Shown here one piece after another: positions 23,116 through 44,405 of a stretch of 64,000 nt of DNA. The notes under the pieces are model-generated. The model saw only the letters and a list, made by a program, of their open reading frames with translations. It ran no database searches and had not been told where the DNA came from. A program made the translations under genes and the position numbers. This DNA comes from Terriglobia bacterium (GTDB lineage Bacteria; Acidobacteriota; Terriglobia; Bryobacterales; Bryobacteraceae): positions 1 to 64,000 of the forward strand of contig JAJPIT010000110.1 in the NCBI GenBank assembly GCA_021324615.1, written 5' to 3'. The stretch's first letter is position 1; each line of letters begins with the position of its first letter.

Positions 23116-23307
23116 ATGACTATTTCGGCACACCTTTCGGCACACCTGAATGAGGAAACCCTGGGACTTTACCTGCTCGGCGACCTTTCCGTCAACGGAG
23201 CCCTGGCGGTCGACGAGCACCTGGCGTGGTGCGGCCGCTGCAACCGCAAACTGCCCCGCGTCAAAGAGGTTTTGGATGCGCTGCGGCCTGCCGCTAGCCG
23301 GCGATGA
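23116..23307 (+). CDS. Small zinc-finger (anti-sigma ZAS-like) protein
   Basis: 63 residues. The segment VDEHLAWCGRCNRKL gives the H-x3-C-x2-C pattern of anti-sigma zinc-binding domains (zf-HC2), preceded by NEETLGLYLLGDLS, as in many ZAS proteins. There is no membrane helix or periplasmic domain, so it would be a soluble version. No ECF sigma gene is adjacent. I chose ATG 23116; a GTG at 23053 in the same frame would add 21 residues. Its end overlaps the convergent glycosyltransferase by 14 bases. Confidence 0.65.
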   Translation: MTISAHLSAHLNEETLGLYLLGDLSVNGALAVDEHLAWCGRCNRKLPRVKEVLDALRPAASRR

Positions 23308-24241
23308 CCGCCGTGCGTATCAGCCTTCCAAGGATCCCGCCAAAGGGTGTGGCAAAAATCAGCGACGGCCAGAAATAAGGCAGGCGGAAATCGCGGTGCG
23401 AGCGGAAGCGGCGGCGGAGCTCCCGCGCTTCGCGCCAGCGGCCCCATACGCTCCAAACACAGGCCGTTTTAAAGGCCCGGATGCTTAAAAATGCGGCGAG
23501 CAGCGGCCGCAGCTCGGCAGGACAGTCCGCCTCGATCGCCGAGGGGTCCTTTAAAAATGGCTCCAGCGGATGCGGACCCAGGCGCCGGTGGCTCAGCGCG
23601 GAGCTTTCCGCGTGCAGGATCATTCCCGGCCGGAGATCAATCCCAACCGGATGCCGCAGCAACAGCTTGAGCCAGAGCGCCGCGTCTTCGGCGTACATGC
23701 AACGATCTTCGATGAATCCGCCGCAGCGGCGCACCAACTCCGTGCGGCTCAGGGTGCTGCACGGCGTCATAAACGCGACGGCGTGCAGAAGAATTTCGGG
23801 CGGCGTGGCCGGGCTGAGGCAAAATGTTCCCTCCGTCAACCTGCGCTGCCGCCACATTTTTTCCGTCGATACACGGCCGGGATCGCGCAGATAGCCGCAA
23901 ACCCAGGCGGCTTCTTCGCTATGACGCAGCCGTTTGACGCCGCGCTCAAGATAATCGGGCAGCCATTCGTCATCTGCATCGAGGAACGCGATCAGGCCGC
24001 CGCGGGCGGCTTCGACGCCGCGATTGCGAGCCGCGCCTGGACCGCTGTTGGCCTGCCGGATCAGGCGGAACCGCGGGTCGGGATAGCGCTCCGCGGTGCA
24101 GGGGCCGTCATCGGTCGAGCCATCATCGACCACCAGGACTTCAAAGTCGCGAAAACTCTGGTTGGCGATCGAATCGAGCGCCCTTTTTACGTATGGTCCC
24201 TTGTTGAAGAGCGGGACAACGACGGTGACGGCGGGGTCCAT
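23294..24241 (-). CDS. Family 2 glycosyltransferase
   Basis: 315 residues. GT-A fold: VTVVVPLFNKGPYVKRALDS at the start, LVVDDGSTDD, GPGAARNRGVEAA and the DADDEW metal motif. The C-terminal region has a WLKLLLRHP segment and hydrophobic helices near the end. I start it at ATG 24241 because homology begins there; the frame stays open far upstream, but only as the shadow of the neighbour. It is divergent from the GT4 gene with 51 bases between. The donor and acceptor are unknown; the neighbours suggest surface glycan synthesis. Confidence 0.9.
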   Translation of the reverse strand: MDPAVTVVVPLFNKGPYVKRALDSIANQSFRDFEVLVVDDGSTDDGPCTAERYPDPRFRLIRQANSGPGAARNRGVEAARGGLIAFLDADDEWLPDYLERGVKRLRHSEEAAWVCGYLRDPGRVSTEKMWRQRRLTEGTFCLSPATPPEILLHAVAFMTPCSTLSRTELVRRCGGFIEDRCMYAEDAALWLKLLLRHPVGIDLRPGMILHAESSALSHRRLGPHPLEPFLKDPSAIEADCPAELRPLLAAFLSIRAFKTACVWSVWGRWREARELRRRFRSHRDFRLPYFWPSLIFATPFGGILGRLIRTAVIAG

Positions 24242-24277
24242 TGGAGAACAGCCGAATTCTACAATCGGCCGAAACGC

Positions 24278-24292: not shown

Positions 24293-25417
24293 ATGGCCGA
24301 TATCCGCGTCGCCGCCGTCATGGAGGCCACCACTGTAACCGGGCCGGCGAAAAACCTGCTTCGCTTCTGCTCGCTCGCGCGCGAGCATCCTTCGCGCCCT
24401 GAAATTTCGGTGGTCACCTTCGTGCGGGGGGCGGAATCGAACGCATTTACGAAAGCGGCGGGCGCGGCGGGAATCAAAGTTTTCACCATCCCCGAGCGAT
24501 CGCCAGTGGACGCGCTGATTTCGGGCCGCTTCGCCCGTCTGCTCGGCGAACTGTCCCCCGGCATCGTTCAAACCCACGGGTCGAAAGCTCACTTTTTCAC
24601 CCGGATGGCGCGGCCGGGCGGCGTCAAATGGCTGGCCTATCACCACGGCTACACCGCCGAGGACTTGAAGATGAAGATGTACAACCGCCTTGGATTCTGG
24701 TCCATGAAAGCGGCCGACCGGATCGTTACGGTGTGCCGGCCGTTTGCGCGGCATCTTGAGGCCGGCGGAATCGACCCGGCGCGGATCCGCGTTGTGCCGA
24801 ACGCCATCGATCCGGCGGCCGAGCACGCGGCGGCGGCGAGCGCGCCGGCCCGAATCGAGGCGGGCATTCCCCCGGGCGCAAAGTGCATTCTGGCCGTCGG
24901 GCGGCTGTCGCCGGAAAAGGGCCACCGCGATCTCATCGAAGCGATGGCGCTTCTGCGGCGCCGGGGCATCGGCGATTTTCGAGCCTTGATCCTGGGCGAC
25001 GGCCCGGAAAGGAAACGGCTGCTCCGGCAGATTGAAACCCGCGGCTTATCCGGGATTGTTCTGTTGTCCGGCCACCAGGCGAATCCCCTGCCTTACTATC
25101 GCCTGGCGGACGTCTTTGTGCTTCCCTCGCACAGCGAAGGCTCGCCCAACGTGCTACTGGAAGCGATGGCCGCCGGCGTTCCGATCGTCGCCTGCGCGGT
25201 GGGAGGAGTTCCCGAATCGGTGCGGCATGAAGAAAGCGCTCTGCTGGTCCCGCCCGGATCGCCGGAGGAGCTGGCCGGGGCGGTCGAGCGGGTGCTCCGG
25301 GACGCTCCGCTGGCCGCGCGCCTGGGACGGGCCGCGCTCGAGCGCGCCGAAAGCTCCCATTCTCCGGCTGTCTATTGCACTTCGTTACTGGAGATCTATT
25401 CCGAATTGTTAGGGTGA
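24293..25417 (+). CDS. Family 4 glycosyltransferase
   Basis: 374 residues, GT-B fold. The N-terminal domain has TVTGPAKNLLRF and VQTHGSKAHFF. The C-terminal nucleotide-sugar domain shows VPNAIDP, LAVGRLSPEKGHRDLIEAM, LILGDGPERKRL and the EX7E region SEGSPNVLLEAMAAGVP. Likely transfers a sugar onto a lipid-linked or secreted glycan. The frame is open well upstream, but the real start is ATG 24293, set by the -10 element and by homology. FkbH starts 32 bases downstream, so this gene leads the next operon or stands just before it. Confidence 0.92.
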   Translation: MADIRVAAVMEATTVTGPAKNLLRFCSLAREHPSRPEISVVTFVRGAESNAFTKAAGAAGIKVFTIPERSPVDALISGRFARLLGELSPGIVQTHGSKAHFFTRMARPGGVKWLAYHHGYTAEDLKMKMYNRLGFWSMKAADRIVTVCRPFARHLEAGGIDPARIRVVPNAIDPAAEHAAAASAPARIEAGIPPGAKCILAVGRLSPEKGHRDLIEAMALLRRRGIGDFRALILGDGPERKRLLRQIETRGLSGIVLLSGHQANPLPYYRLADVFVLPSHSEGSPNVLLEAMAAGVPIVACAVGGVPESVRHEESALLVPPGSPEELAGAVERVLRDAPLAARLGRAALERAESSHSPAVYCTSLLEIYSELLG

Positions 25418-25449: not shown

Positions 25450-27180
25450 ATGATGACTTTAACCGAAGCCCTGCGGGAGAGGAAACGGGCGCCCGTAGAT
25501 GCCGAGCCTTTTCGAGTCATTCTCGCTTGCGGCTTCACTCCCCTGCATTTGAGCACTTTCCTGGCGGCGCATCTGCAACGGCGGCTGCCATCGAGGCCGG
25601 TGGAGGTCACCTGCGGCTTATATGGCGATCTCCCGGGCACGCTGCGCGAAAGCGCCGCGAAGAATCCGGGCGCGGTGGCGGTCGCGCTGGAGTGGGCCGA
25701 TCTGGATCCGCGCTTGGGTTACCGCAATCTGGGCGGGTGGGGTCCGGCGGAGCAGGACGATATTGTCCGGCAAGTCGAATCCCGACTCGGATCGCTGCGC
25801 CGTGTGATCGAAGAAGTTGCTGATGCGGTTCCAGTGGCGGCCGCGTTTCCGAGCCTGCCTCTGCCGCCGGTTTTTCACACCGGATCGCGGCAGGCGGGCC
25901 GCGCCCAGGCGCGCTTGAACGCACTGGCGCAGCAGGCCGCCTGCGAGCTTTCCGCGCACGCCTCGATTTCCATCGCCAGCGCGCAGCATCTCGATCTGGT
26001 TTCCCCGCCCGCAGAGCGTTACGACCTTCAATCGGACCTGTTTACCGGATTCCCTTATAAACGGGCGCACGCTTCGGCTCTCGGCGAGGCGCTGGCGAAC
26101 CTGATCGCGCCGGCGCCGCCCAAAAAAGGGCTGATCACCGATCTCGACGATACGCTGTGGAGCGGGATCGTCGGCGAGGCAGGGCCGGAAGGGGTGCATT
26201 GGGATCTGGAACATCACGCCCAGATCCACGGTTTATATCAGCAGACGCTGCGCGCGCTCGCCGACGAAGGCGTTTTGATCGCGGTCGCCAGCAAGAACGA
26301 CGCCGCGGTGGTGCAGCGGGCGCTGGCCCGCCCGGACATGATCCTTTCTCCGGAGAAAATTTTCCCGCTCGAAGTGCATTGGCAGGCCAAGTCCGGATCG
26401 GTGGCGCGAATTCTCAAAGCCTGGAATATCGGCGCGGGCGATGTGGTGTTTGTCGACGACAGCCCGCTTGAGCTGGCCGAGGTGGAACGGGCCTTTCCCG
26501 GAATCCACTGCCTGCGCTTCCGCCCGGGCGATTATGCGTCGGCCGAAGCTTTTCTTACCGGCCTGCGCGACCTGTTCGCGCGAAAGCGCATTTCCGACGA
26601 AGACGCGTTGCGCCGGGAAAGCCTGCGTTCGGCCTCCGAATTTCAATCGCGAATGGCGCAGCAGGACGCCCCGGAAGAGTTTTTGCGGGAGCTGAACGGC
26701 TCCATCGCGGTGAACGCGCAAGCCGCCGGAGATCCGCGGTCGCTGGAGCTGGTCAATAAAACCAATCAGTTCAATTTAAATGGCCGGCGATTCGATGCGG
26801 CCGAATGGCGGGCGCTGGCGGCGTCGCCGGGCGCTTTTGTCTGGAACGCCGCGTATCAGGACAAGTTCGGTTCGCTGGGCAAGATCGCCGTGCTGGCGGG
26901 GAAGGTCCGGGAAGGCAAGGTCCTGCTGGAAAGCTGGGTGATGAGCTGCCGCGCCTTTGCCCGCGGAATCGAAAATCACTGCCTGGCGCTGTTGTACGAA
27001 CGGACCGGCGCCGAAGAGATCATTTTCTGTTTCCGCGCCACGGACCGCAACGGGCCGCTTCAGGATTTTCTGGCGCGGCTGCTCGGCCGCGCGCCGGAAG
27101 CAGGGGCGCGGCTGGAGCGGCGCGAGTTCGAACTGCGCGATTTGCCTCTTTATCACCAAGTCCAGTGGAGGGAATCATGA
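25450..27180 (+). CDS. fkbH: FkbH-like HAD-IIIC protein (acyl loading onto ACP)
   Basis: 576 residues. The central HAD domain has ITDLDDTLWSGIVGE (from about residue 229), AVASKNDAAVV, and DVVFVDDSPLELAEV. The C-terminal domain has LVNKTNQFNLNGRR and the acyltransferase-like SWVMSCRAFARGIE. FkbH proteins such as OzmB take 1,3-bisphosphoglycerate and load a glyceryl unit onto an acyl carrier protein. The N-terminal 200 residues match the usual FkbH N-terminal domain. Its TGA overlaps the ACP gene's ATG, which strongly supports this partnership. The final product here is unknown. Confidence 0.92.
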   Translation: MMTLTEALRERKRAPVDAEPFRVILACGFTPLHLSTFLAAHLQRRLPSRPVEVTCGLYGDLPGTLRESAAKNPGAVAVALEWADLDPRLGYRNLGGWGPAEQDDIVRQVESRLGSLRRVIEEVADAVPVAAAFPSLPLPPVFHTGSRQAGRAQARLNALAQQAACELSAHASISIASAQHLDLVSPPAERYDLQSDLFTGFPYKRAHASALGEALANLIAPAPPKKGLITDLDDTLWSGIVGEAGPEGVHWDLEHHAQIHGLYQQTLRALADEGVLIAVASKNDAAVVQRALARPDMILSPEKIFPLEVHWQAKSGSVARILKAWNIGAGDVVFVDDSPLELAEVERAFPGIHCLRFRPGDYASAEAFLTGLRDLFARKRISDEDALRRESLRSASEFQSRMAQQDAPEEFLRELNGSIAVNAQAAGDPRSLELVNKTNQFNLNGRRFDAAEWRALAASPGAFVWNAAYQDKFGSLGKIAVLAGKVREGKVLLESWVMSCRAFARGIENHCLALLYERTGAEEIIFCFRATDRNGPLQDFLARLLGRAPEAGARLERREFELRDLPLYHQVQWRES

Positions 27181-27431
27181 ACGACATCCGGGCGCGATTG
27201 ACCACCTGTTTCGCCACGGTATTTCCGGCGCTGGAGGCCGCCGAGATTCCCGCGGCGACGCAAAAGACGGTAGCCGCATGGGATTCGGTGGCCGCCATCA
27301 CGCTGCTGAACGTGATCGAAGAGGAGTTCAACACGCAGATCGATTTCGAAGCGCTGGCCGATCTGGATTCCTTCGACGCAATCGCCGCGTATCTAAGCGA
27401 CCGGGTGGCGGCGGGCAATTCGGGCGCCTGA
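27177..27431 (+). CDS. Acyl carrier protein partner of FkbH
   Basis: 84 residues. The phosphopantetheine site is Ser37 in AAWDSVAAITLLNVIEEEF, in the usual D-S-V/L context, and the second half has the expected helix (FDAIAAYLSDRV). It starts at an ATG overlapping the fkbH stop (ATGA), and its own stop overlaps the next gene's ATG (TGATG). It probably carries the glyceryl or similar three-carbon unit made by FkbH. It is not the housekeeping fatty-acid ACP, whose core is DSLDTVE. Confidence 0.9.
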   Translation: MNDIRARLTTCFATVFPALEAAEIPAATQKTVAAWDSVAAITLLNVIEEEFNTQIDFEALADLDSFDAIAAYLSDRVAAGNSGA

Positions 27432-27850
27432 TGGAAGCCGCGCTGCTCGGCAAGCTGCATCATGTCGGCTTCGTGGTGCGCTCGATTGAGGAGTCGCTGG
27501 GAGGTTTTTTACGCTCGCTCGGCGGTCACGCCGTCACCGGCGTCATTCACGATCCGCTGCAACAGGTCAACGTGCTGTTTCTGCGGACCGGTCCGGCGGA
27601 GTCGATGATTGAACTGGTCGAGCCCGCTGGAGAAAAATCGCCGGTCCGCCGCTTTCTCGAAAAGGGCGGCGGCTTGAATCATCTCTGCTACGAGGTCGCC
27701 GACATGGAAGCCGCGCTCAACCAGATGAGGCTCCGAACCGCCACCATCGTCAGCAGACCCAAGCCGGCCGCCGCTTTCAACGGCCGTCCGGTCGCCTGGG
27801 CGGTGACCAAAGAGTGGCTGCTGGTCGAACTGCTCCAGGCCGAGAGGTAA
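27431..27850 (+). CDS. VOC-family protein (glyoxalase / methylmalonyl-CoA epimerase-like)
   Basis: 139 residues, two beta-alpha-beta-beta-beta halves. LHHVGFVVRSIEESLGGFL begins the first half; LNHLCYEVADMEAALNQM begins the second. The metal-ligand pattern H...(E in MIELVEP)...H...(E in LLVELL) fits the family. Similar small VOC proteins accompany FkbH-ACP pairs in some polyketide and glycan clusters. It might epimerise or otherwise change the ACP-bound unit; that is inference. Coupled to the ACP gene by a one-base overlap. Confidence 0.85.
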   Translation: MEAALLGKLHHVGFVVRSIEESLGGFLRSLGGHAVTGVIHDPLQQVNVLFLRTGPAESMIELVEPAGEKSPVRRFLEKGGGLNHLCYEVADMEAALNQMRLRTATIVSRPKPAAAFNGRPVAWAVTKEWLLVELLQAER

Positions 27851-27856
27851 GCGCGC

Positions 27857-28612
27857 ATGGCGGGGTCGTTTCTTCTGAAATTGCACCGCGGCGAGGGGCC
27901 GTTTTTCGGTTTCCTCAAACGTCTGATTCTGGCGAGCATGCGGTCCAGCTTCACGCCGCCGCGCGCGGTGAAGCCGCTTTTTTGCTTTTTCTATCACGCG
28001 CATTACGCGGTTTCCTTCGGATTCCGCCAGTTTTTGAACATGATTTATCGCGGGCCGCTGTTTAAGGCGCGCTGTGAAAAGGTCGGCCGGAATCTGAGCA
28101 TCTGGTCGATGCCCGCCGTTGTCGGACCGGTGCGGATTTACATTGGCGACGATGTGGAGATCTTCGGGCATCTGGGCGTGACCAGCGGGCGGATCTTCGA
28201 CGAGCCGCGGCTAGTGATCGGGGACCGGGTGGATATCGGCCACAACATCCAGATCACGGTCAACCGCGAGGTGGTCATCGAGGAGGAAGTGAATATCGCC
28301 TCCGGCGTGCGAATTCTCGATACCGACGCGCATCCCCGCGATACCGATGCCCGCGCGAAAGGGCTGCCTCCGCCGGAAGCCGAGATCAAGGCCGTGCGCA
28401 TCGGGCGGCGCGCCTGGCTCGGGCAGAGCTGCTTCATCATGAAGGGCGTGACGGTCGGCGAAGGTGCGGTCATCGGGGCGAACAGCGTGGTGGTCACCGA
28501 CATTCCGCCGTATGCGGTGGCTATGGGCAATCCGGCGCGGGTGGTGGTTAAAGATGTGCGGCAGACGGCGGCTCCGGGCCCGTCCGCGGATCCTGTGCCG
28601 CCGCGGGCGTGA
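27857..28612 (+). CDS. Left-handed beta-helix acyltransferase
   Basis: 251 residues. N-terminal helices (FFGFLKRLILASM, LFCFFYHAHYAVSFGFRQF) are followed by hexapeptide repeats (IYIGDDVEIFG, LVIGDRVDIGHNIQI, VVIEEEVNIASGV) and the LbH acyltransferase end (AVIGANSVVVTDIPPYAVAMGNPARVV). It starts 6 bases after the VOC gene, in the same operon. It could move the FkbH/ACP-derived acyl group to a sugar. Its last 65 bases overlap the convergent second acyltransferase gene. Confidence 0.88.
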   Translation: MAGSFLLKLHRGEGPFFGFLKRLILASMRSSFTPPRAVKPLFCFFYHAHYAVSFGFRQFLNMIYRGPLFKARCEKVGRNLSIWSMPAVVGPVRIYIGDDVEIFGHLGVTSGRIFDEPRLVIGDRVDIGHNIQITVNREVVIEEEVNIASGVRILDTDAHPRDTDARAKGLPPPEAEIKAVRIGRRAWLGQSCFIMKGVTVGEGAVIGANSVVVTDIPPYAVAMGNPARVVVKDVRQTAAPGPSADPVPPRA

Positions 28613-29165
28613 TCGGCTTTGCCGGATTGCCGGCGGCCACGGTTCTGGCCGGCACGGGCCGGGTCACCACCGAACCGGCGCCGACGGTTGAACCGTTGCC
28701 GACATCCGCCATCACGATGGCCCCCGCGCCGATCCAGCAGTCGGCGCCGATCTCGATCCGCTGGAACTCGCCTTTTTCGGCGCCCTGAAGGCCCCCGGCG
28801 GCGTCGCGGGGATGCTGGCGGCGGCCGCTTAGGATCTGCACCCCGGAGGCGATTTGCGTCCGTTCTCCGATGGTGACTTTTCCAAGCACGCAGAACGATC
28901 CGATATAAACGCCCGGCGCGACGCGCGCGTCGCGGTGAGCGAAGAAGGTTCCAAAGGAGATCCGCGCCGCGAGCGAACATTCGGCCAGCGTCAGGCGGTA
29001 GTAGGCCGCGCGGAAGTAATCGCCCAGAATCCCGGGACCAAGCGCCGCCAGGTGCGCCCCCACGGTAAACAGCGGCCGCAGGCGGCCGAATCCGGCGAGC
29101 AGGGCGAAGGGCAGGGCCAGCAGCAGAAAGACAAAGTTGGCGATCCGCTTGGCCGCCGGTTTCAA
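28548..29165 (-). CDS. Left-handed beta-helix acyltransferase with N-terminal membrane helix
   Basis: 205 residues. An N-terminal helix (FVFLLLALPFALLAGFG) precedes hexapeptide repeats (GVYIGSFCVLGKVTIGERTQIASGVQI) and the usual end (GAIVMADVGNGSTVGAGSVVTRPVP, AAGNPAKPI). The start is TTG at 29165, with GGGAGGG 5 bases before it. It is divergent from the asparagine synthase gene (62 bases between) and overlaps the other acyltransferase tail to tail. Acceptor unknown; probably a surface sugar. Confidence 0.87.
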   Translation of the reverse strand: MKPAAKRIANFVFLLLALPFALLAGFGRLRPLFTVGAHLAALGPGILGDYFRAAYYRLTLAECSLAARISFGTFFAHRDARVAPGVYIGSFCVLGKVTIGERTQIASGVQILSGRRQHPRDAAGGLQGAEKGEFQRIEIGADCWIGAGAIVMADVGNGSTVGAGSVVTRPVPARTVAAGNPAKPITPAAAQDPRTGPEPPSAAHL

Positions 29166-29227
29166 GAGTCCCTCCCGCCCATCACATCAGGATAGCTGTG
29201 TCACGCTTCATCTGCGACAATAGCGGA

Positions 29228-31114
29228 ATGTGCGGAATTGCCGGTTTCATCAGCACCGGCGAGCCGGGTAGCGAAATCCCGGCGGTACGGGCCATGATGG
29301 CGGCACTCGCCCGCCGCGGGCCGGATGGGGAGGGCCTGAGCCACTGGCCGGGGGTGACCTTCGGTCACCGGCGGCTGGCCATCATCGATCTGAGCGCGGC
29401 CGGGAGCCAGCCGATGCTGTCCGCCGACGGGCGGATCGGGCTGGTGTTCAACGGCTGCATCTATAACTTCGAGGAACTGAGGCGGGAACTGCAAGCCGCC
29501 GGGTGGACGTTCCGCTCCCGTTGCGACACCGAAGTTTTGCTGATCGGTTATCAGCAGTGGGGCGCGCGCGAGATGGCCCGGCGGCTGCGCGGGATGTTCG
29601 CTTTCGCCATCTGGGACCAGAGCTTGCGGAAATTGACGCTGGTCCGCGACCGGCTCGGGGTAAAGCCGCTGGTGTATGCCGTCCGGGGCCAGGAGCTGGT
29701 TTTCGCCTCGACCATTTCGGCGCTGGCGGCGGCGGGCGCGGCGGGCGATATCGATCCGGCCGCGGTTCTTGAATACCTGGAATTCGGTTTCGTGACCGAC
29801 CAGCGCTCGATCTTTCAGGGCGTCCGCAAGCTGCCGCCCGCAACGATTCTCGAATGGCAGGAGGGCCGCGTGTCGGAATCCTGCTACTGGTCTTTGCCCG
29901 CAACGGAGAATTTCGCGCCGGTCCGCTTCGAGGATGCGGTCGAGGAAACGGAGAACAGAATCATCGAGGCGGTGCGCATCCGGCTTTGCGCCGATGTGCC
30001 CATTGGCGCGCTGCTTAGCGGCGGCATCGATTCCGCGCTGGTCTGCTGGGCTCTGGCGCGTCTTCAGGCGAACGTGACGGCCTTCACCATCGGCGCGGCA
30101 GGCGACGCCTCCGATGAAGCGGACGCCGCGCGCCAGACCGCTGCGAAACTCGGGATTCCGCATGAGGTGATCCCGTGGGAAGAAGCCGGCGCGCCGGCGC
30201 TGGACGAGTTGCTCGATGCCTTCAGCGAGCCGTTCGCCTGCCAGTCCGCCTTGGGGGTTTTGCATCTGGCGCAAGCCATCCGGCCGAAAGCAACTGTTCT
30301 GCTGACCGGAGACGGCGGCGACGACGTTTTCCTCGGCTATCCGTTTTTTTACAACGTCTGGCGGGCCCAGCGGATCGCGCAGCGGCTGCCCGGATGGGCG
30401 CCCGCGGCCTGGAAGTGGATCCGCCCGCTGGCCGCCTTCGGCGCCGGACGCCGCGCGGCCAACTTCGGCGATTACGTCGTGGGAGGCCTGGGCGCCTATA
30501 ATCGTGTGCGCGCCGGGTTGCCGTATTTCGAGCAGCGGGGGATGCTCGGCGAGCGCTTGCAGAATGTCCGGCTGGAGCAGCGCCGGATTCCGGCGTCTTT
30601 CGCCTCCGCGCGCCGGCTTCTGGATGATGTCTTCAAATATCATCAAAAAACGCATTTTTTGAGCGAATTTATGCCGAAAGTGGACGGTGGAACGATGTAT
30701 TGGGGCCTGGAAGCGCGCGCGCCGTTTCTCGATCATAGGCTGTGGGAATACGCCGCCTCGCTGCCGCCGGAGATCCGTTTTCAGGGCGGAAAGCTCAAGG
30801 CCGTTTTGCGGGAAATTGTTGCGCGCCGCATTGGCCGGACGGTCGCCATCCGCCGCAAACAGGGCTTCACGATTCCGGTGGAGAAGTGGCTTGCGACGGA
30901 GGGGCGCGGGCAGCTCGAGCTGCTGCGGTCCGGAACGCGCCTGGAGAGCGGCGGGTGGATCCGCCGCGGCAGTCTGGCTACAGAGATCGATCGTTTCGGC
31001 AAGTCCGGCGCCGCTCCCCTGCCGCTCTGGTATCTTTTGGTACTGGAAAAGTGGCTGCAAAGGCAGGCCGAGATCCGCGTCCGCCCGGCGCCGGTCCAGG
31101 CGGAAGTGGCGTGA
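29228..31114 (+). CDS. Asparagine synthase-like glutamine amidotransferase, with Glu to Cys change in glutaminase site
   Basis: 628 residues. The N-terminal Ntn glutaminase begins with the catalytic Cys (MCGIAGF) and has ARRGPDGEG, HRRLAIIDL and RCDTEV. The synthetase half has the ATP-binding SGGIDSALV and a conserved LTGDGGDDVFLGY. One oddity: the family's FNGEIYN reads FNGCIYN, Cys77, at the position equal to glutamine-binding Glu76 of E. coli AsnB. In glycan loci such proteins amidate uronic acids; that fits the context. ATG follows GACAAT (29216-29221) by 6 bases. The stop overlaps the next gene's GTG. Confidence 0.92.
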   Translation: MCGIAGFISTGEPGSEIPAVRAMMAALARRGPDGEGLSHWPGVTFGHRRLAIIDLSAAGSQPMLSADGRIGLVFNGCIYNFEELRRELQAAGWTFRSRCDTEVLLIGYQQWGAREMARRLRGMFAFAIWDQSLRKLTLVRDRLGVKPLVYAVRGQELVFASTISALAAAGAAGDIDPAAVLEYLEFGFVTDQRSIFQGVRKLPPATILEWQEGRVSESCYWSLPATENFAPVRFEDAVEETENRIIEAVRIRLCADVPIGALLSGGIDSALVCWALARLQANVTAFTIGAAGDASDEADAARQTAAKLGIPHEVIPWEEAGAPALDELLDAFSEPFACQSALGVLHLAQAIRPKATVLLTGDGGDDVFLGYPFFYNVWRAQRIAQRLPGWAPAAWKWIRPLAAFGAGRRAANFGDYVVGGLGAYNRVRAGLPYFEQRGMLGERLQNVRLEQRRIPASFASARRLLDDVFKYHQKTHFLSEFMPKVDGGTMYWGLEARAPFLDHRLWEYAASLPPEIRFQGGKLKAVLREIVARRIGRTVAIRRKQGFTIPVEKWLATEGRGQLELLRSGTRLESGGWIRRGSLATEIDRFGKSGAAPLPLWYLLVLEKWLQRQAEIRVRPAPVQAEVA

Positions 31115-31875
31115 ACGGGCAGGAGGAACTCAGCTCGGCCCGCCGCGCTCTGTACCGCTTCTACGGCAGGCTGCAAAAGGCGGTCGCGCCGGGGATCCGC
31201 TATTCGCAGTTCGATTATCTGGACGCGCTGAAGGCCCGCGCCGCGCCGGGCTGCCGGTGGCTGGACCTCGGTTGCGGGCACCGGATGTTCCCCGATTTCC
31301 TGTCCGCCGAGGAGCGGGCGCTGGCCGCGCGAGCCGCCTATCTGGTCGGCATCGATATGGTCGCCGCCGACGTGAAGCGGCATCGGTCGCTGGCGGGCAG
31401 GGTTGCCGGAAACATCGAGAGACTGCCGTTTGCGCCGGAGTCGTTCGACCTGGTCACCGCCAACATGGTGATCGAACACGTAGCCGATCCGCGGGCGCTT
31501 CTGGAGCAGGTTTTTGGCGTGCTCCGCTCCAAGGGTTTGTTCATCTTTCACACGCCGAACCGCAACTGCGCGCTGGTTCGGATGGCGCGGCTGGTTCCGC
31601 AAGCGGTCAAGAATAGAATCATCCTGCTGCTGGAAGGGCGCCGGGAAGAAGACGTCTTTCCGACGGAGTACCGGATGAACACGAGCCGGGAAATTCGCGC
31701 GGCGGCTGCGGCGGCGGGTTTCGAAGTTGTGGAGTTGAAGCAGTTGAACTCCGCCGCGATCACCGCGCTGCTGGGCCCGCTGGCGATCTTTGAGTTGTTG
31801 TATCTCCGGATTCTGGAGAATCCGCGTCTGGCCTGGCTGCGCAGCAATCTGGTGGCGACCTTGCGGAAGCCCTGA
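31111..31875 (+). CDS. Class I SAM-dependent methyltransferase
   Basis: 254 residues. Motif I is WLDLGCGHRMF; the acidic residue of motif II is in VGIDMV; ESFDLVTANMVIEHVADPRALL is motif IV, and GLFIFHTPNRN motif VI. This is the Methyltransf_11 type often found in sugar and secondary-metabolite clusters. The GTG start overlaps the asparagine synthase TGA by 4 bases. The C-terminus has a hydrophobic segment (AITALLGPLAIFELLYL) that may bind the membrane or a lipid-linked substrate. Confidence 0.9.
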   Translation: MNGQEELSSARRALYRFYGRLQKAVAPGIRYSQFDYLDALKARAAPGCRWLDLGCGHRMFPDFLSAEERALAARAAYLVGIDMVAADVKRHRSLAGRVAGNIERLPFAPESFDLVTANMVIEHVADPRALLEQVFGVLRSKGLFIFHTPNRNCALVRMARLVPQAVKNRIILLLEGRREEDVFPTEYRMNTSREIRAAAAAAGFEVVELKQLNSAAITALLGPLAIFELLYLRILENPRLAWLRSNLVATLRKP

Positions 31876-31888
31876 GGCGCCGGCGGCG

Positions 31889-33337
31889 TCAGCGGAAGAT
31901 TGCGCGGGCGGCGTGCAAGACCTTGGCGGCGAACTCCCGTTCCTGGCTCTGAAAGAATCCGCTCAGGATCAGCGTGGCGGCGTAAACCGCCAGTCCGATG
32001 AGGCTGATCAGGGTTTGCGAGAACCAATCGCCGGAGCCGAACATCATGATGAGGAGGCTTGCGGCGCCGGCGATTCCGATGCGCGCCAGGCGTCCGGTCT
32101 CAAAGGAAAAACTCCGGACGCGCTGCGCCTGAATGAAACTGAGGATGGCCATGGCCAGGAATGACAGCCCGGTCGCCGCCACGGCTCCCCAGGCTTTAAA
32201 TGCGGGGATCAGGGTCGCACACAGCAGCAGGCAGATTCCCGCGGTCCACAGAATCACGCGCGCGGTCAGGCCCGGGCGGTTTTCCACCAGAAGCGGCGAG
32301 CGGAGATAATCCGCCAGGCCGCGCACCACGTAAGCGCCGGTCAGCAGCGGGATGTAGGCGATCGCGGGATGGAAGGCAGGCGGGGTCAGCAGCAGCACGC
32401 CCGGCTGGCCGAGGGCCGTAAGGACCACGGCGGCGGTCATCAGCGCCAGCACGTAATAGGTGCACAGCCGCACATACATCTCGCCGCCTTTTCCTTCCTT
32501 CAAGATCGCGAACATCTGGGCGTCCCAATAGGTGACAAAAGCAAGTTGCGCGGCGCCCACCACCATCGCCGCTTTATAAGCCAGCGAATACAAGCCGAGA
32601 GCCGAAAGAGACGCGGATCTTTGCAGGAACCAGCGGTCGCCGAAATGGATAAACAGCATGGCGACTCCGCTGACGCCGAGCGGGGCCGCGTAGCGGAATA
32701 ACGAGCGCAAAAGCGCCAGATCGACGGCGGCGCGGTGGCGGATAAGGGCGTAGGGGACAAACACCAGGCACGCCGACAGGGACGCGATCACGGCGCCCTT
32801 CTGAACGCCGAGGTATCCATCGCCATGGACCAGGAACAGGACGCTCGACCCGGCCTGAACCGCCAGCCTGCCCACCTGAATCGCCAGATATACCCTGGAT
32901 TTGTTCAGCACGCGCAGATGGGCGAAGCCGATCTCCTGCACAAACGCCAGAGCCGTCCCGACCGAGACGAGCTGAAATCCGGGCGTGTACGCCGCCGTGC
33001 CGAATACCAGCCGCGACAGGAGGCCGGAGCAGAACCAGCCTCCAAAGCCCACGGCGATACCCGCCAGCGCCCCGCCGAGATAGGCGGTCATGAGCACCGC
33101 AGGCCGGCGTTGCTCGCCGGCATGAGAGTCGAAGTAAAAGAAAGCATCGCTCAGCCGTAACGCCACCAGTGTCCCGATCACGCTTGAAGAAATCTCCAGC
33201 AGTTCCAGGACGCCGTAGTCGGCCGGAGCCAGGTAGTGCGTGTAAACCGGCAGCAGAAGAACGGAGGCGAGCTTGCCGGCGACGATACCGGCCGAGTAGG
33301 CCGTCAGATGCCGCAGCATGCTCCTGTAGTTCGACAT
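31889..33337 (-). CDS. Polysaccharide flippase (Wzx/MOP family)
   Basis: 482 residues with about 12-14 membrane helices; begins YRSMLRHLTAYSAGIVAGKLASVLLLPVYTHYL and continues DYGVLELLEISSSV, the classic Wzx/MOP entry. It should flip lipid-linked oligosaccharide across the inner membrane. I chose ATG 33337; the frame is open upstream but only as a shadow of the APH-like gene. It begins 4 bases after that gene's stop and shares its operon. The tail converges on the methyltransferase with 13 bases between. Confidence 0.9.
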   Translation of the reverse strand: MSNYRSMLRHLTAYSAGIVAGKLASVLLLPVYTHYLAPADYGVLELLEISSSVIGTLVALRLSDAFFYFDSHAGEQRRPAVLMTAYLGGALAGIAVGFGGWFCSGLLSRLVFGTAAYTPGFQLVSVGTALAFVQEIGFAHLRVLNKSRVYLAIQVGRLAVQAGSSVLFLVHGDGYLGVQKGAVIASLSACLVFVPYALIRHRAAVDLALLRSLFRYAAPLGVSGVAMLFIHFGDRWFLQRSASLSALGLYSLAYKAAMVVGAAQLAFVTYWDAQMFAILKEGKGGEMYVRLCTYYVLALMTAAVVLTALGQPGVLLLTPPAFHPAIAYIPLLTGAYVVRGLADYLRSPLLVENRPGLTARVILWTAGICLLLCATLIPAFKAWGAVAATGLSFLAMAILSFIQAQRVRSFSFETGRLARIGIAGAASLLIMMFGSGDWFSQTLISLIGLAVYAATLILSGFFQSQEREFAAKVLHAARAIFR

Positions 33338-33341
33338 GCGG

Positions 33342-34289
33342 CTACGTCCAGATGCCCGCGGGTAAGGATGAGCCGGGCGGGGGAAATCCGCGGCGCTCCA
33401 GAATCGAAGCGATTTTATACCAGATCCCGCGCGTGGATGGTCCCGCGATCCGGATGCTACCGGCCAGGAAATGATAGAAGGCGGTTCGCAGTTCGGCTTC
33501 GCCGCCGGAAAGGGTGCGGATTTTTTCTTGAAAAAACCGGGAGAGCGGCGCCGGCGAAAACCAGATGGAGCCAAATGCGGCGACATCGGGCGGGGTCTTC
33601 ACCGCGCCGCCGTACTCAAAGCAACAGCTCGTCATCAACTTAAAGATGTCGTGCAAGGGGCTTCGCGCCGCCAGGCCGCTCCAGTCGAAAACTCCTATGC
33701 GCTTTCCTTCGAACCGCAGGTTGCCGTACCAGAAATCTCCGTGGCTGGGAGCGGCGGCGAACTCCGGGGCGGATTCCAGAAGACTGCGCAGCCCGGCGAC
33801 CGCGCCGCATTCTTGCTGGAGCGGATGCAGGGCGGCGATTGCGGATTCGCGCGCGGCGCCGGCGGATCCGCAGCTTTCGGCGGGAATCGTTTGCCGGAAC
33901 CGCTCCAGCCACGCGAGGGCCGTGTTCAACGGCTGCGCGCCGCCGCCCGGGCCGGAGGCCAGGCGGAAAGTGATCCTCACCAGCCGTCCGGGAACGGCGG
34001 AAGTCAGCAGGCAGGCGCTGCCTGCCTCGCACTGCCAGTCGAGCACGCGCGGGATTCCCAACTCCGCGGCCCAGGGGGCGATGGCCAGCAGCGCCTGATG
34101 CTCCTTCGCCAGTTCCAGGACCGCTTCGGGGGTGCGCGCGACTTTGGCCACCCACGCCGGACCCTTCCCCGATTCGGGATAGCCGAGGATGACCGCGACG
34201 CCCTTCCTGCTGCCCAGCGTGGCGAGGGAGATCCGCTCCGGCGCGCGCGCCAGAGCGGCAGCCACGGCTTTATGCACCGGCGGCCTCAA
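33342..34289 (-). CDS. APH/choline-kinase-like phosphotransferase
   Basis: 315 residues. The kinase catalytic loop PSHGDFWYGNL (HGDxxxxN) and the metal motif IGVFDWSGLAA (IDWE-like) are clear, and WVAKVA carries the ATP lysine. The family covers antibiotic kinases, choline kinases and small-molecule or sugar kinases; the setting between a methyltransferase and a flippase suggests a sugar or lipid-head substrate rather than drug resistance. Its start overlaps the upstream methyltransferase by 20 bases, so translation is coupled. Confidence 0.8.
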   Translation of the reverse strand: MRPPVHKAVAAALARAPERISLATLGSRKGVAVILGYPESGKGPAWVAKVARTPEAVLELAKEHQALLAIAPWAAELGIPRVLDWQCEAGSACLLTSAVPGRLVRITFRLASGPGGGAQPLNTALAWLERFRQTIPAESCGSAGAARESAIAALHPLQQECGAVAGLRSLLESAPEFAAAPSHGDFWYGNLRFEGKRIGVFDWSGLAARSPLHDIFKLMTSCCFEYGGAVKTPPDVAAFGSIWFSPAPLSRFFQEKIRTLSGGEAELRTAFYHFLAGSIRIAGPSTRGIWYKIASILERRGFPPPGSSLPAGIWT

Positions 34290-35346
34290 GCACGAAGACG
34301 AAATCGGCGCCGAAGGTCCGCCAGAACCAGGGCTTCGCCAGGGCCAGGCGCAGGCCGTTCAGCAGGCGGTCTTTCAAGCCGCCGGGCTGGTTCAGATGCT
34401 CCAGAGTGTAGGTGACGATGGCCTCCTGCACCAGCGGAACCAGCTCGGTCGGATAGTCGTAGCCGCGGACGCTGATGTGGGTGGATCGCGCGCGCAGTCC
34501 GGCCCGGGCGAATAGTTTTAAAAATCCGCCGTGGGTGTAGGTATATGTCCGGTAGGTGGCGTTGTGCGAGGAGCGGTAATTGCGGCTCCGCCGGCAAATC
34601 CAGGTCGCCAGAAAACGAGGCAGCAGGCTGGTGTAGGGAATTCCGCTGTGATCGGGAACGCCGCGGAGCTGCGCCCAGCCGATGCGATTCTCGATTCCCA
34701 CGTAGATCAATCCGCCGGGCTTGAGAAAACCGCGCAGCCTCCGGAGAAAATCGACTTGAACCTCCGTCACGCCTTTGGAGGTATCGAAAAGGCCGACCCA
34801 TTCGAGCACGCCGCTGACGATGGCGGCGTCGAACTGGCCGGGGCCGAACCCGACCGAGTTCACGTCGCCATTGACGACGGCGAGATTCTCGCTGAGGCCC
34901 TCCTGGGCGGCTCGCAGCGCGATGAAATCCGCCCGCTCGGCTACGCCTTCCTGCGCAACAACCCGGTAATTCCGGGCGAGCTCGGCGGCGATGCCGCCCA
35001 TCCCCGCGCCCACGTCGAGCACCAGAGCGCCCGGGCGAAGCGGCAAAATTTCCTGAAAAGCGGCGCGGTCCGGCGTGGTCACGTATTCGCACAGGACCGG
35101 GTCGAGGAGGGACCGAACCGCCGCGCGCCAGCCCTCGCGCTGGCTTTCCTCGAGCAGGCGGCGCATCTGATCCTGCGGGATCTCGCCCCAATAGGGAATC
35201 GGCGAGCCGATCACGGCCTTCGCGCCATCCCAGGCCCCGGCCTTCCGGCCGCAGCCGCAGAGATAAACGCCGCCGGAGAGCGGGATGTCACGGCCGCACG
35301 GGCAGCCGAGGTTCAGCTTCTCCAGCCAGCGGGGATAGTCTGCCAC
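34270..35346 (-). CDS. SAM-dependent methyltransferase with N-terminal zinc-ribbon-like segment
   Basis: 358 residues. The N-terminus has CPCG and CGCG pairs 16 residues apart (first at about 15), which look like a small zinc ribbon of the Trm112 sort. The methyltransferase core has VLDVGAGMGGIAAELA, AVVNGDVNSVGF, FDAAIVSGVLEWV and GGLIYVGIENRIGW. It is the first gene of the minus-strand methyltransferase, kinase, flippase set. The substrate is unknown; glycan or lipid-linked sugar is likely from context. Confidence 0.85.
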   Translation of the reverse strand: MADYPRWLEKLNLGCPCGRDIPLSGGVYLCGCGRKAGAWDGAKAVIGSPIPYWGEIPQDQMRRLLEESQREGWRAAVRSLLDPVLCEYVTTPDRAAFQEILPLRPGALVLDVGAGMGGIAAELARNYRVVAQEGVAERADFIALRAAQEGLSENLAVVNGDVNSVGFGPGQFDAAIVSGVLEWVGLFDTSKGVTEVQVDFLRRLRGFLKPGGLIYVGIENRIGWAQLRGVPDHSGIPYTSLLPRFLATWICRRSRNYRSSHNATYRTYTYTHGGFLKLFARAGLRARSTHISVRGYDYPTELVPLVQEAIVTYTLEHLNQPGGLKDRLLNGLRLALAKPWFWRTFGADFVFVLEAAGA

Positions 35347-41638: not shown

Positions 41639-41730
41639 AACCTTCGTACCTTTTTCCCCCTAGACCGCGTACTGCTCCTGGGAAGCTGTGGTAAAATTCC
41701 CGGAAAGTACCGTAGTCGGAGGTATTGAAG

Positions 41731-42369
41731 ATGCGTAGATTCTTGTTTTGTGCTCTTCTTGCGGGGCTTCTGGGAGCCGGTCTGCGCGCCGCGCCGGTTT
41801 GCACGCCCGGGTCCGGCATCTGGAATGAGGGCGATGATGGCGAAGGCGATGCGGGCCCCACGCTGGCCTCGGCGAATAACACGATCGGCACGAATCCGCT
41901 GACTGAGATCTGTGGGAAACTGCCCGATGCCAACGTCGATATGTACGCGATCATGATCACGGGCTCGCCGTTTACCGCCGTCGCGACCGGCGCGGCGGTT
42001 AATGGGCTTTCGGAGCCGACGTTGTACCTTTTCGATTCGGCCGGCCACGGCCTGGATGCGGCCTTCAATAATTCGGGAACCGCCTCGCTGACGGTGACCG
42101 GATTGACGGCCGGGCTCTACTATCTGGCGCTGGCTTCGGAGAACCGCGATCCGCAAAACGCCAGCCATCAACTGATCTTCGGCACGAGCACCACGCCGGT
42201 GGTGTCCGATACGGTGCTCAAGAGCTGGACGGGCACCGGGGATTCCAGCGGCAACTACGTCATAACGCTCCGGGATGCGGGATTCGCGAACCTGCCCGAG
42301 CCGGGGACTTTCGCGCTGATCGGCGTAAGCCTCGGTCTGGTGGGCTTGGTCCGCAAACGCGCGCGCTAG
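41731..42369 (+). CDS. PEP-CTERM sorted exported protein
   Basis: 212 residues. Signal peptide MRRFLFCALLAGLLGAGLRA; a beta-rich exported domain (DMYAIMITGSPFTAVATGAAV, PTLYLFDSAGHGL, GLTAGLYYLALASENRDP) resembling bacterial pre-peptidase folds; and the sorting tail LPEPGTFALIGVSLGLVGLVRKRAR, here quoted only in part by its PEP motif, helix and basic end. Exosortase processing is expected, but no exosortase gene lies in the window. CGGAGG sits 8 bases before the ATG. Its stop overlaps lpxI's stop by 4 bases (convergent). Confidence 0.88.
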   Translation: MRRFLFCALLAGLLGAGLRAAPVCTPGSGIWNEGDDGEGDAGPTLASANNTIGTNPLTEICGKLPDANVDMYAIMITGSPFTAVATGAAVNGLSEPTLYLFDSAGHGLDAAFNNSGTASLTVTGLTAGLYYLALASENRDPQNASHQLIFGTSTTPVVSDTVLKSWTGTGDSSGNYVITLRDAGFANLPEPGTFALIGVSLGLVGLVRKRAR

Positions 42370-43181
42370 TCCGGAGCCGGTTGGCGCGCAAGGATCGCGA
42401 TTTGCGCTTCGTTGGCGCGCGCGATCATCTCCTCGCGGTCGATCAACAACGTGCGGCCGGCGTCGACGGCCAGCGCGGTGGTGCCGGTCTCGCGCATGAC
42501 CTGGATGGTTTGCGGGCCGATCACCGGAACGTCGAACCGCAGGTGCTGGCGGCGCTGTGACCCCTTCACCAGCCGCAGCGGTTTTCCTTCTGAAAGCGAC
42601 CGGGCGCGGCGCAGCATGGCGTCGGTTCCCTCCATCGCCTCGACGGCGACGCAGGCCCGTTCGGCAATGGCGACGCTTTGTCCGATGTCGAGCGAGGCCA
42701 GCGCGGCGGCAATCTTGCGGCCGTAATCGAGATCCCGCATCTCCTCGCCGGTGGGCTTCCGGCGGCTTAAAACTCCTTGCGGCGCGAGCAGATCTTTGAG
42801 CAACAGCGTGGAGTCGGCGAGCTCGATTCCCTCTTCGGCCAGCACGCGCGCGACGCCGCCGATCAGGCTCTCGGTGTTTTTCGTTTCAAGCGAAGCCAGC
42901 AGCTTCAACAGCCGCCAGTCCGGCACGATCGCGGAAAAAATTTTCGCGTGCTTCACTTGCCCGCACATCATCACCTGGGTGATGTTTTCGCGGTGGCAGA
43001 TCTCGATCAGCCGGGAGAGCGCGCCCAGCGAGATCCAATAACAACGCGCCGCCAGAGGCTCGATTTCGGGCGCGGCTTGTTCCTGGATCGCGATGGCGAC
43101 GATCTCGATACCGGCCTTCCGCGCCGCCTCGAGCGCGAGCACGGGAAAACGGCCGCTGCCGGCGATCAAACCCAGCGGCAT
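42366..43181 (-). CDS. lpxI: UDP-2,3-diacylglucosamine pyrophosphatase LpxI
   Basis: 271 residues of the LpxI (formerly DUF1009) family, which hydrolyses UDP-2,3-diacylglucosamine to lipid X in lipid A synthesis where LpxH is absent. It begins PLGLIAGSGRFPVLALEAA and has RRKPTGEEMRDLDYG, GQSVAIAERACVAVEAMEGTD and AVDAGRTLLIDREEM, all LpxI marks. It follows lpxA by one base; fabZ-lpxA-lpxI form one minus-strand operon. Confidence 0.93.
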   Translation of the reverse strand: MPLGLIAGSGRFPVLALEAARKAGIEIVAIAIQEQAAPEIEPLAARCYWISLGALSRLIEICHRENITQVMMCGQVKHAKIFSAIVPDWRLLKLLASLETKNTESLIGGVARVLAEEGIELADSTLLLKDLLAPQGVLSRRKPTGEEMRDLDYGRKIAAALASLDIGQSVAIAERACVAVEAMEGTDAMLRRARSLSEGKPLRLVKGSQRRQHLRFDVPVIGPQTIQVMRETGTTALAVDAGRTLLIDREEMIARANEAQIAILARQPAPD

Positions 43182-43182
43182 T

Positions 43183-43959
43183 TTACTTGACGAATCCGCG
43201 CTCGCTCGAGCGGATGAAGCGGATCAGCTCGTCGAGCTCGGGCGACGGCTCGATCTCCGCGGCAATTCTTTCGAGCGCCTGGGTGGTGTTCAAGCCGCTG
43301 TGCGTCAGCAGCCGGAAGGCCTTGTGCAGCGCGTCGATGGTGGCGGGCGCGAAGCCGCGGCGCTTGAGCCCGGTGACGTTCGCTCCGAAGACGCGCGCCT
43401 CGCGTTCGGTCACCGTGGTGGAAAACGGAAGCACGTCGCGGGTGATGACGCTGTAGCCGCCGATGAAGGCGTGGCGGCCGACGCGGCAGAATTGATGAAC
43501 GCCGCTGGAGGCGCCCACGATTCCCCAGTCCTCGACCACCACATGGCCGCCGAGCGTCGCGGCGTGCGATATCACGGTATGGCTGCCGATGCGGGTATCG
43601 TGCGCCACATGAACATAGGTCATCAGCAGATTATCGTCGCCGATGGAGGTGAGCATCCCGCCGCCTTCTGTGCCCCGATGAATGGTCACGAACTCGCGAA
43701 TCTGATTCCGGTGGCCGATGCGAGTCCGCGAGGGCTCGCCGCGATATTTCAGATCCTGCGAAGCGACGCCGACGGTGGAATACGGGAAAAAGACGTTGTC
43801 TTCGCCGATTTCGAGATCGCCGTCCAGGAACACGTGGGCCAGGATCCGGGTGCGCGCGCCGATGGAAACCTTTGGGCCGATCAGGCAGTAGGGGCCGATC
43901 TCGGCCGACTCCGCGATCTTCGCGCCGGGCTGTACGATGGCGGTGGGATGAATCGGCAT
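43183..43959 (-). CDS. lpxA: UDP-N-acetylglucosamine O-acyltransferase LpxA
   Basis: 258 residues; first enzyme of lipid A synthesis, cytosolic trimer. Hexapeptide-repeat beta-helix from IHPTAIVQPGAKIAESAEIG on; the catalytic His is in MTYVHVAHDTRIGSH; TVTEREARVFGANVTGLKRRGF and the C-terminal helices are typical. Two bases separate it from fabZ upstream and one from lpxI downstream. Confidence 0.96.
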   Translation of the reverse strand: MPIHPTAIVQPGAKIAESAEIGPYCLIGPKVSIGARTRILAHVFLDGDLEIGEDNVFFPYSTVGVASQDLKYRGEPSRTRIGHRNQIREFVTIHRGTEGGGMLTSIGDDNLLMTYVHVAHDTRIGSHTVISHAATLGGHVVVEDWGIVGASSGVHQFCRVGRHAFIGGYSVITRDVLPFSTTVTEREARVFGANVTGLKRRGFAPATIDALHKAFRLLTHSGLNTTQALERIAAEIEPSPELDELIRFIRSSERGFVK

Positions 43960-43961
43960 CG

Positions 43962-44405
43962 CTACGGATCAGCGCGGTCAGCGAGCTTGCAGAGCATCGT
44001 CGCCTCGGCGGCCACCGCGCCGTCAATCGAAGCCGTGCCGAACATTTTGGCGATGGTCGCCTTGCGCCTGGCGACCTTCATTTCGATGCGGAGCTGATCG
44101 CCGGGCCTCACCGGTCTGCGGAATTTCGCCTCTTCCACCGAGGCCAGCAGGACCAGTTTATTCTGGCGGTCCGGAATCTGGCTCAACACCAGCACGCCCG
44201 CCACCTGCGCCATGGCTTCCACGATCAAAACGCCCGGCATCACCGGAAAATCCGGGAAGTGGCCGATGAAAAACGGCTCGTTTACGGTGACGTTCTTGAT
44301 GCCGACGATGCGCTCCGGTTCCAGTTCGTCGATGCGGTCGACCAGCAGAAACGGATAGCGGTGCGGCAGGATCGCGCGGATCCCCTGGATATCCATGACT
44401 GGCAT
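43962..44405 (-). CDS. fabZ: 3-hydroxyacyl-ACP dehydratase FabZ
   Basis: 147 residues; dehydrates beta-hydroxyacyl-ACP in fatty acid synthesis. ILPHRYPFLLVDRI, the catalytic GHFPDFPVMPGVLIVEAMAQ region (His and Glu) and FRRPVRPGDQL are intact. ATG 44405 and ATG 44396 (MDIQG) are both usable. A minus-strand TATAAT (44423-44418) ends 12 bases before ATG 44405. First gene of the lipid A operon. Confidence 0.96.
   Translation of the reverse strand: MPVMDIQGIRAILPHRYPFLLVDRIDELEPERIVGIKNVTVNEPFFIGHFPDFPVMPGVLIVEAMAQVAGVLVLSQIPDRQNKLVLLASVEEAKFRRPVRPGDQLRIEMKVARRKATIAKMFGTASIDGAVAAEATMLCKLADRADP

Follow-up and report, generated by a model that had tools for sequence, protein, structure and literature searches.

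What purpose could be served by an FkbH protein and a stand-alone acyl carrier protein (ACP) whose genes lie among those for glycosyltransferases, next to a VOC-fold metalloprotein and with no polyketide synthase beside them? The question is raised by a cassette at positions 25450–31875 of a 64,000-nucleotide stretch of DNA (the window), which comprises bases 1–64000 of contig C29 in the 3.94 Mb draft genome, 99.3% complete, of a Terriglobia bacterium. An earlier note on this DNA had proposed that the cassette decorates a glycan rather than supplying a polyketide, and genomic context supports this in outline, the same set of genes being found within glycan loci of named relatives. Judging from sequences and their neighbourhoods, it is probable that the cassette makes a glyceryl (2,3-dihydroxypropionyl) group and transfers it to a surface glycan. 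The enzymology is known in kind; what is new is the glycan setting and the proposed VOC step. Beyond the earlier proposal, the present analysis shows a wide distribution of the module, with the VOC protein often among its members and one type of acyltransferase replaced by another, and it finds neither a polyketide nor a peptide synthase in the genome.

The enzymes of the cassette

In the proposed route, FkbH would take glycolytic 1,3-bisphosphoglycerate, strip its phosphate and load the D-glyceryl unit onto the thiol arm of the ACP, a step that is known for polyketide FkbH/ACP pairs and is suggested here by the family of the protein, the residues of its active site and the coupling of the genes. 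The VOC protein would then act on the ACP-bound alpha-hydroxyacyl thioester, most plausibly inverting the alpha carbon by way of a metal-bound enediolate, and a left-handed beta-helix (hexapeptide) acyltransferase (LbHA), or a GNAT-like or MBOAT protein in relatives, would attach the glyceryl group to a sugar, at a hydroxyl or an amino position. Gene context suggests that the adjoining glycosyltransferases would build this acceptor and that the flippase would export it; the AsnB protein and the methyltransferases would be further glycan-tailoring enzymes, loosely tied to the glyceryl unit.

The gene fkbH (25450–27180, plus strand, 576 aa) encodes a protein of the FkbH / HAD-IIIC glyceryl transferase-phosphatase type (TIGR01686 and TIGR01681), which passes the NCBIfam cut-off for TIGR01686 (212.7 against 146.65 bits) and is the sole FkbH match in its genome. 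Residues D231, D233, T235, D336, D337 and C500 do not vary in an alignment of 29 sequences, namely the window's own and 28 of 31 relatives (L041, L066 and L067 left out); we take D231, D233, D336 and D337 to be the catalytic aspartates of the HAD fold and C500 to be the conserved cysteine. By sequence, a single FkbH-type relative with a solved structure came up, namely BF1531 of Bacteroides fragilis (PDB 3slr), which matches over residues 224–363 only. The stand-alone ACP (27177–27431, plus strand, 84 aa) passes the cut-off for PF00550 (26.7 against 20.8 bits), and its WDS attachment site, W35-D36-S37, with Ser37 as the phosphopantetheine serine, is invariant in 26/26 aligned proteins (25 of the 26 related ACPs and that of the window). 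The overlap of fkbH with acp amounts to 4 bases (ATGA) and that of the acp stop with voc, whose ATG stands at 27431, to 1 base, which is a sign of translational coupling.

The third gene, voc (27431–27850, plus strand; PF13669, 70.9 bits), encodes the proposed glyceryl-ACP epimerase. VOC-fold enzymes use a metal to aid proton movement at the carbon adjoining a thioester or hemithioacetal, and glyceryl-ACP is an alpha-hydroxy thioester of the kind that this fold handles; therefore inversion of D- to L-glyceryl on the ACP would be the simplest role, one that we put forward tentatively and hold to be less likely than not. The earlier note had assigned no role to this protein. Residues H12, E62, H85 and E134 (numbered, as in all VOC searches, on 27428–27850, which is one residue longer) are kept in 81/81, 80/81, 81/81 and 80/81 sequences, and are presumably, from their roles in the superfamily, the metal ligands. 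The AlphaFold2 model has a predicted local distance difference test score (pLDDT) of 90.7, and its best PDB matches are 3hdp and 2qh0, an annotated 'glyoxalase I' of Clostridium acetobutylicum that, of the solved structures, comes nearest to the VOC proteins linked to FkbH, followed by 3oa4 and methylmalonyl-CoA epimerases. Fold and four metal ligands are common to methylmalonyl-CoA epimerase, glyoxalase I and the cassette protein, whose family carries the motif PAxAFxGR(R/P)xAW; the housekeeping epimerase differs, with HP: FVHPSSTGGVLLEL, positioned somewhat later.

That the cassette protein might itself be the housekeeping methylmalonyl-CoA epimerase was rejected, because a separate protein on contig C99 passes the cut-off of TIGR03081 (138.5 against 114.95 bits) and the cassette protein does not (61.4 bits). 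A test of the catalytic base was also set aside: the position of Glu43 in the Streptomyces coelicolor enzyme (mutant chains) has no discriminating power, since it is Val in the genome's own epimerase, and the alignment of the cassette protein is uncertain in this loop. As an observation in its own right, the C. acetobutylicum 'glyoxalase I' has part of the cassette VOC motif, and its annotation may merit a second look; a paper on clostridial flagellin islands mentions neither a glyoxalase nor FkbH.

Beyond voc lie the proposed glyceryl transferase to sugar, LbHA (27857–28612, plus strand; PF00132, 36.7 bits; WbbJ model 85.3 bits, below its cut-off of 243), an AsnB-type glutamine amidotransferase (asnB, 29228–31114, plus strand, 628 aa, with the best start at 29228, MCG...) and, overlapping asnB by 4 bases, an S-adenosylmethionine-dependent methyltransferase (31111–31875, plus strand; PF13489, 70.4 bits). 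The six genes of the earlier note are all found where it had placed them, and its gene order stands; it had overlooked a second hexapeptide acyltransferase, LbHB (28548–29165, minus strand; PF00132, 51.3 bits), which lies between LbHA and asnB, convergent with LbHA and overlapping its tail. A relative of LbHB, 60% identical, is present in L064 (1257–1796), about 7 kb from FkbH. The AsnB protein passes the asparagine synthase model TIGR01536 (393.2 against 267.1 bits) and falls below the cut-off of the XrtA amidotransferase model TIGR03108 (423.2 against 816.9); a relative, 37% identical, is encoded on C25 of the same genome. No exosortase was found in the window locus, and the sole match in the genome is on C124.

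Linkage of FkbH, carrier protein and VOC protein

The company that these genes keep elsewhere was followed in two sets of loci. Among 150 genomes of the family, 103 have some match to FkbH, and the 31 FkbH loci fetched (L037–L067, 43–54% identity) represent all the listed matches of the high-identity class besides the window's own, minus a partial copy at a contig end (G138:C228). The other set comprises the best 80 of 207 VOC relatives that came up when 84,980 species genomes were scanned with the VOC alignment, the patterns being derived from FkbH-linked proteins and the scan itself blind to neighbours. The two sets share genomes (L037 and L083, for example, are one contig). In the 31 FkbH loci, tblastn finds an ACP in 26, a VOC relative in 12 and clustered relatives of LbHA in 7 (one is cut by a contig end); the six that were aligned are 44–55% identical.

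From the side of the VOC protein, FkbH is present in the fetched locus in 65/80 cases (in 64/80 at no more than 3.5 kb) and an ACP in 59/80. The chance of an FkbH within 3.5 kb of a VOC gene is estimated at well under 1%, because there are mostly 1–3 FkbH copies per genome of several Mb; and of the 15 loci that lack FkbH, 11 have less than 5 kb of DNA on one side, which does not apply to L122, L123, L139 and L156. The 65 linked loci divide by FkbH bit score into 25 of a high and 40 of a low class (L080 is low only through an FkbH cut at the contig end). The order FkbH-ACP-VOC is seen in 23 high and 10 low loci, VOC-FkbH-ACP in 1 high and 18 low, VOC-ACP-FkbH in 3 low, and 10 are otherwise arranged or incomplete. 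That the linkage has been kept through such rearrangement is strong evidence of a shared pathway. It is seen, among others, in records titled Acidobacteria, Gemmatimonadetes, Omnitrophus, Planctomycetes, Verrucomicrobia, Chlorobiaceae and Proteobacteria. No FkbH-VOC or FkbH-ACP fusion was found among open frames above 25 bits in the 80 VOC loci.

AsnB and the methyltransferase are looser members of what the earlier note had treated as one cassette. AsnB was found in 5/31 and 11/80 related loci by an iterated profile (4/31 by tblastn), and the family of the methyltransferase at 31111–31875 in 0/31 and 2/80.

In three of the loci (L062 7674–8849, L065 7665–8864 and L067 3812–5281) genes which by sequence likeness encode MaoC and short-chain-dehydrogenase proteins adjoin FkbH-ACP, with no VOC gene. 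Such enzymes could convert glyceryl to another C3 unit; weak relatives are also present in the VOC loci L122, L143 and L147, so they are not exclusive to loci that lack VOC.

Glycan setting and rival explanations

The immediate neighbours in the window are a GT4 glycosyltransferase directly upstream of fkbH (about 24293–25417, plus strand; PF00534, 142.6 bits), a GT2 glycosyltransferase whose start codon is uncertain (about 23294–24262, minus strand; PF00535, 115.5 bits) and, on the other side, an oligosaccharide flippase of the Wzx type (about 31889–33337, minus strand; PF01943, 38.2 bits, scanned as 31889–33586). These are followed by an APH-type phosphotransferase (33342–34289, minus strand; PF01636, 44.7 bits) and a methyltransferase (34270–35346, minus strand; PF08241, 40.2 bits), both probably genes of the glycan locus and both kept in L077, and beyond the latter by genes that by eye are those of ATP synthase. 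The 12-gene locus is no artefact and consists of real genes under selection, because L077, a Terriglobia metagenome-assembled genome, keeps all 12 genes in order from GT2 through the second methyltransferase, at 81–95% amino-acid identity (91% for the copy of LbHB, at the same position), and because third codon positions hold most of the nucleotide changes in each of them. A scan for promoters and terminators gave no more matches than in shuffles. Further away in the window, 10269–12539 encodes one chain with LptC and LptA/LptD-N domains (PF06835, PF03968) that adjoins an ABC ATPase gene, probably for lipopolysaccharide export.

The same enzymes recur in the glycan loci of named bacteria. In the planctomycete Singulisphaera acidiphila DSM 18658 (L145), genes for an O-antigen-ligase-type protein (PF04932, 40.0 bits, cut-off 31.7), GT2, GT4, GT2, a hexapeptide protein 33% identical to LbHA, FkbH, ACP, VOC, GT4, AsnB, polysaccharide deacetylase and GT2 stand in a row. 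On plasmid pPfer1 of Paludibaculum fermentans (L184), FkbH lies beside GNAT, GT2 and deacetylase genes, more glycosyltransferases, MBOAT, O-antigen ligase and flippase, and about 19 kb separate FkbH from a VOC and an ACP gene, whose neighbours are an exosortase and a deacetylase of the XrtA type (TIGR03006, 358 bits, cut-off 276); no ketosynthase was found in the 45 of 55 kb tested. Plasmid pMl9 of Sinorhizobium meliloti (L183, 11974–17859) has VOC, MBOAT, a 409-aa protein, ACP and FkbH (288 bits) in a row, the best model for its MBOAT being DltB (112.5 bits, below the cut-off of 375), and the 409-aa protein being without a Pfam match and by eye membrane-anchored and DltD/AlgJ-like; beyond some other genes, about 4 kb further on, come genes of the capsule type and for ABC transporters. 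On a plasmid of Aquisphaera giovannonii a distant FkbH-type gene is surrounded by genes for exosortase, glycosyltransferase and dTDP-rhamnose, and the annotation of the 21 kb shown includes neither an ACP nor a VOC protein. Aside from the question of the cassette, the 55 kb of pPfer1, with its two carrier proteins, seem largely given to exopolysaccharide synthesis.

At the level of counts, a GT2, GT4, polysaccharide deacetylase or O-antigen-ligase-type gene is present in 16/31 and 46/80 loci against 1/19 control stretches (Fisher p 6e-4 and 2e-5), and an acyltransferase candidate (hexapeptide, GNAT-like or MBOAT) in 25/31 and 51/80 against 0/19; these contrasts lean towards the favoured reading because the seeds of the profiles, which were then iterated across all sets, came from the window, L145, L052 and proteins encoded in the related loci, and the controls come from four genomes only, at places set by hand. 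The narrower count of GT2, GT4 or flippase gives 11/31, 36/80 and 1/19, and that of polysaccharide deacetylase by profile 7/31, 23/80 and 0/19. Polysaccharide deacetylase is also the commonest Pfam family (6 proteins) among 104 near neighbours, which were hand-picked as nearest from 197 frames of a simple gene caller.

The leaning of these contrasts and the narrow base of the controls weigh against glyceroylation of a surface glycan, as do several further points. None of the sought glycan genes is present in the fetched stretches of 15/31 FkbH loci and 34/80 VOC loci, and flippase relatives are found in only 2/31 and 4/80. Neither VOC nor LbHA is an obligatory companion of FkbH, given their frequencies in the FkbH loci. 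The structure model of LbHA is poor (pLDDT 69.8), and its top Foldseek match, the sugar N-acyltransferase AntD (E 1.6e-4), is a weak likeness of little weight. On pPfer1 the ACP next to VOC, at 16.7 bits, misses the Pfam cut-off of 20.8, and a second ACP adjoins an adenylate-forming enzyme; the partner of FkbH there is thus uncertain, the VOC-side ACP being both distant and below the cut-off. Lastly, distant FkbH proteins do serve polyketides.

This last point leads to the rival by which FkbH and ACP would feed the synthesis of a polyketide or nonribosomal peptide by genes at another place in the genome. Most FkbH proteins described so far work for polyketide synthases (e.g. PMC7489565), and such pairs both exist and are detected by our search, because in genome G032 a distant FkbH (32% identity, C127:43094–44149) lies about 0.6 kb from a ketosynthase (pair 41712–44149), and a distant FkbH is matched in 114 plasmid records (35 of them from Streptomyces), in several of which the match lies inside annotated type I polyketide synthase genes. 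The relatives' genomes have ketosynthases in 30 cases, and among the matches listed a ketosynthase shares a contig with a high-identity FkbH in G001:C140 (at least 25 kb away), G030:C511 (39 kb) and G142:C2 (a weak partial match, about 90 kb). Against this rival, no ketosynthase was found on contig C29, where the earlier note had looked to a nearby synthase as the refuting result, and none in the 80 VOC or the 31 FkbH loci, a control polyketide synthase stretch giving three matches; the whole genome, nearly complete, has no condensation-domain match and five ketosynthase matches, of which two are weak (E 3.5e-6 and 5.4e-6) and three are stand-alone and of FabF size (open frames of 464 and 413 aa, and a protein of 415 aa). 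Polyketide use was rejected on the ketosynthase and condensation-domain searches, leaving it extremely improbable.

The other rivals keep the acylation and change its substrate, its acceptor or the role of VOC. A unit other than glyceryl could be transferred, if VOC, or MaoC and short-chain dehydrogenase in relatives, turned it into a different C3 acyl, for example lactyl or pyruvyl, or if the methyltransferase made O-methylglyceryl. MaoC and short-chain-dehydrogenase proteins each account for 3/104 of the neighbours, and an O-methylated group is known from Campylobacter jejuni flagellin (2,3-di-O-methylglyceroyl; PMC3068675), but a scan of ten proteins from the cassette and its flanks found neither enzyme, and the rarity of the methyltransferase family, absent from all 31 loci, tells against the methylated variant, so that we regard this as rather unlikely. 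Somewhat less likely still is a free-standing acylation island, with a lipid, protein or small molecule as acceptor and the glycan genes nearby through the coincidence of a genomic island: it would account for the loci that lack the sought glycan genes, and the neighbours in L039, L041 and L042 are not tied to glycans by eye, but the enrichment over the control stretches and the position of the set inside glycan loci of named bacteria from two phyla speak against it. That VOC might be a glyoxalase detoxifying methylglyoxal or trioses, and no pathway step at all, is suggested by the annotation of its best solved match, but seems improbable, as the proximity of FkbH in most VOC loci would be unexpected for a general detoxifier, and the window VOC has no match to the glyoxalase I model (TIGR00068) in NCBIfam at E 0.001.

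Comparison with known systems

If glyceroylation of a surface glycan is indeed the function, a portable module of FkbH, ACP and acyltransferase would be a concrete candidate route to the glyceroyl groups of bacterial surface sugars, chemically linking glycolysis to surface chemistry. For genome mining, FkbH genes alone would be no sign of a polyketide pathway, and a function is proposed for a conserved VOC subgroup annotated in plasmid records merely as VOC family protein.

The loading step has its closest counterpart in polyketide supply. FkbH proteins such as OzmB provide polyketide pathways with glyceryl-ACP. In the tetromadurin system Mad7/Mad8 and Mad14/Mad12, each an FkbH with a stand-alone ACP, make glyceryl-ACP (PMC7489565). 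The cassette shares this pair of proteins; it differs in that no polyketide synthase, FabH-like enzyme or dehydrogenases were found, and that VOC and a sugar-type acyltransferase are present instead.

The proposed end product, glyceryl on a surface sugar, is known as a structure from the C. jejuni group mentioned above, which is carried by pseudaminic acid (Pse), from the Tannerella forsythia S-layer glycan (Pse with N-glyceroyl; PMC6120980, PMC9912281) and from the Pragia fontium O-antigen (a D-glyceroyl-amino sugar; PMC10609480). The gene-cluster study of T. forsythia calls a candidate gene for the glyceroyl elusive (PMC6120980), and the C. jejuni paper makes no mention of an acyl carrier (PMC3068675). 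A search of open-licence papers by titles and the starts of abstracts, which is weak evidence of absence, found among the papers listed none joining FkbH or HAD-IIIC to a glycan, or FkbH to a VOC protein. Genes of the HAD-IIIC and ACP types are present in the flagellin locus of C. jejuni.

The nearest system in overall logic is Dlt (DltABCD), in which D-alanine, a small acyl group, is loaded onto a carrier protein and then moved by an acyltransferase to a surface polymer. The S. meliloti array of VOC, MBOAT, a protein without assignment, ACP and FkbH is similar to it in order, and may represent a Dlt-like glyceroylation operon in a well-studied species. Extending this, and with considerable doubt, FkbH-ACP-VOC could be viewed as a general Dlt-like module for the glyceroylation of surface glycans in many phyla, with glyceryl from glycolysis in the place of D-alanine, with VOC as a so far unrecognised alpha-hydroxyacyl-ACP epimerase that sets the D or L form, and thus as the missing genes for the glyceroyl groups. 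Neither an MBOAT DltB nor an adenylating DltA is among the ten cassette and flank proteins, the sole MBOAT match of the genome being on C79. In comparison with Dlt, FkbH would replace the adenylating DltA, and the window has a hexapeptide protein where Dlt has the MBOAT protein DltB.

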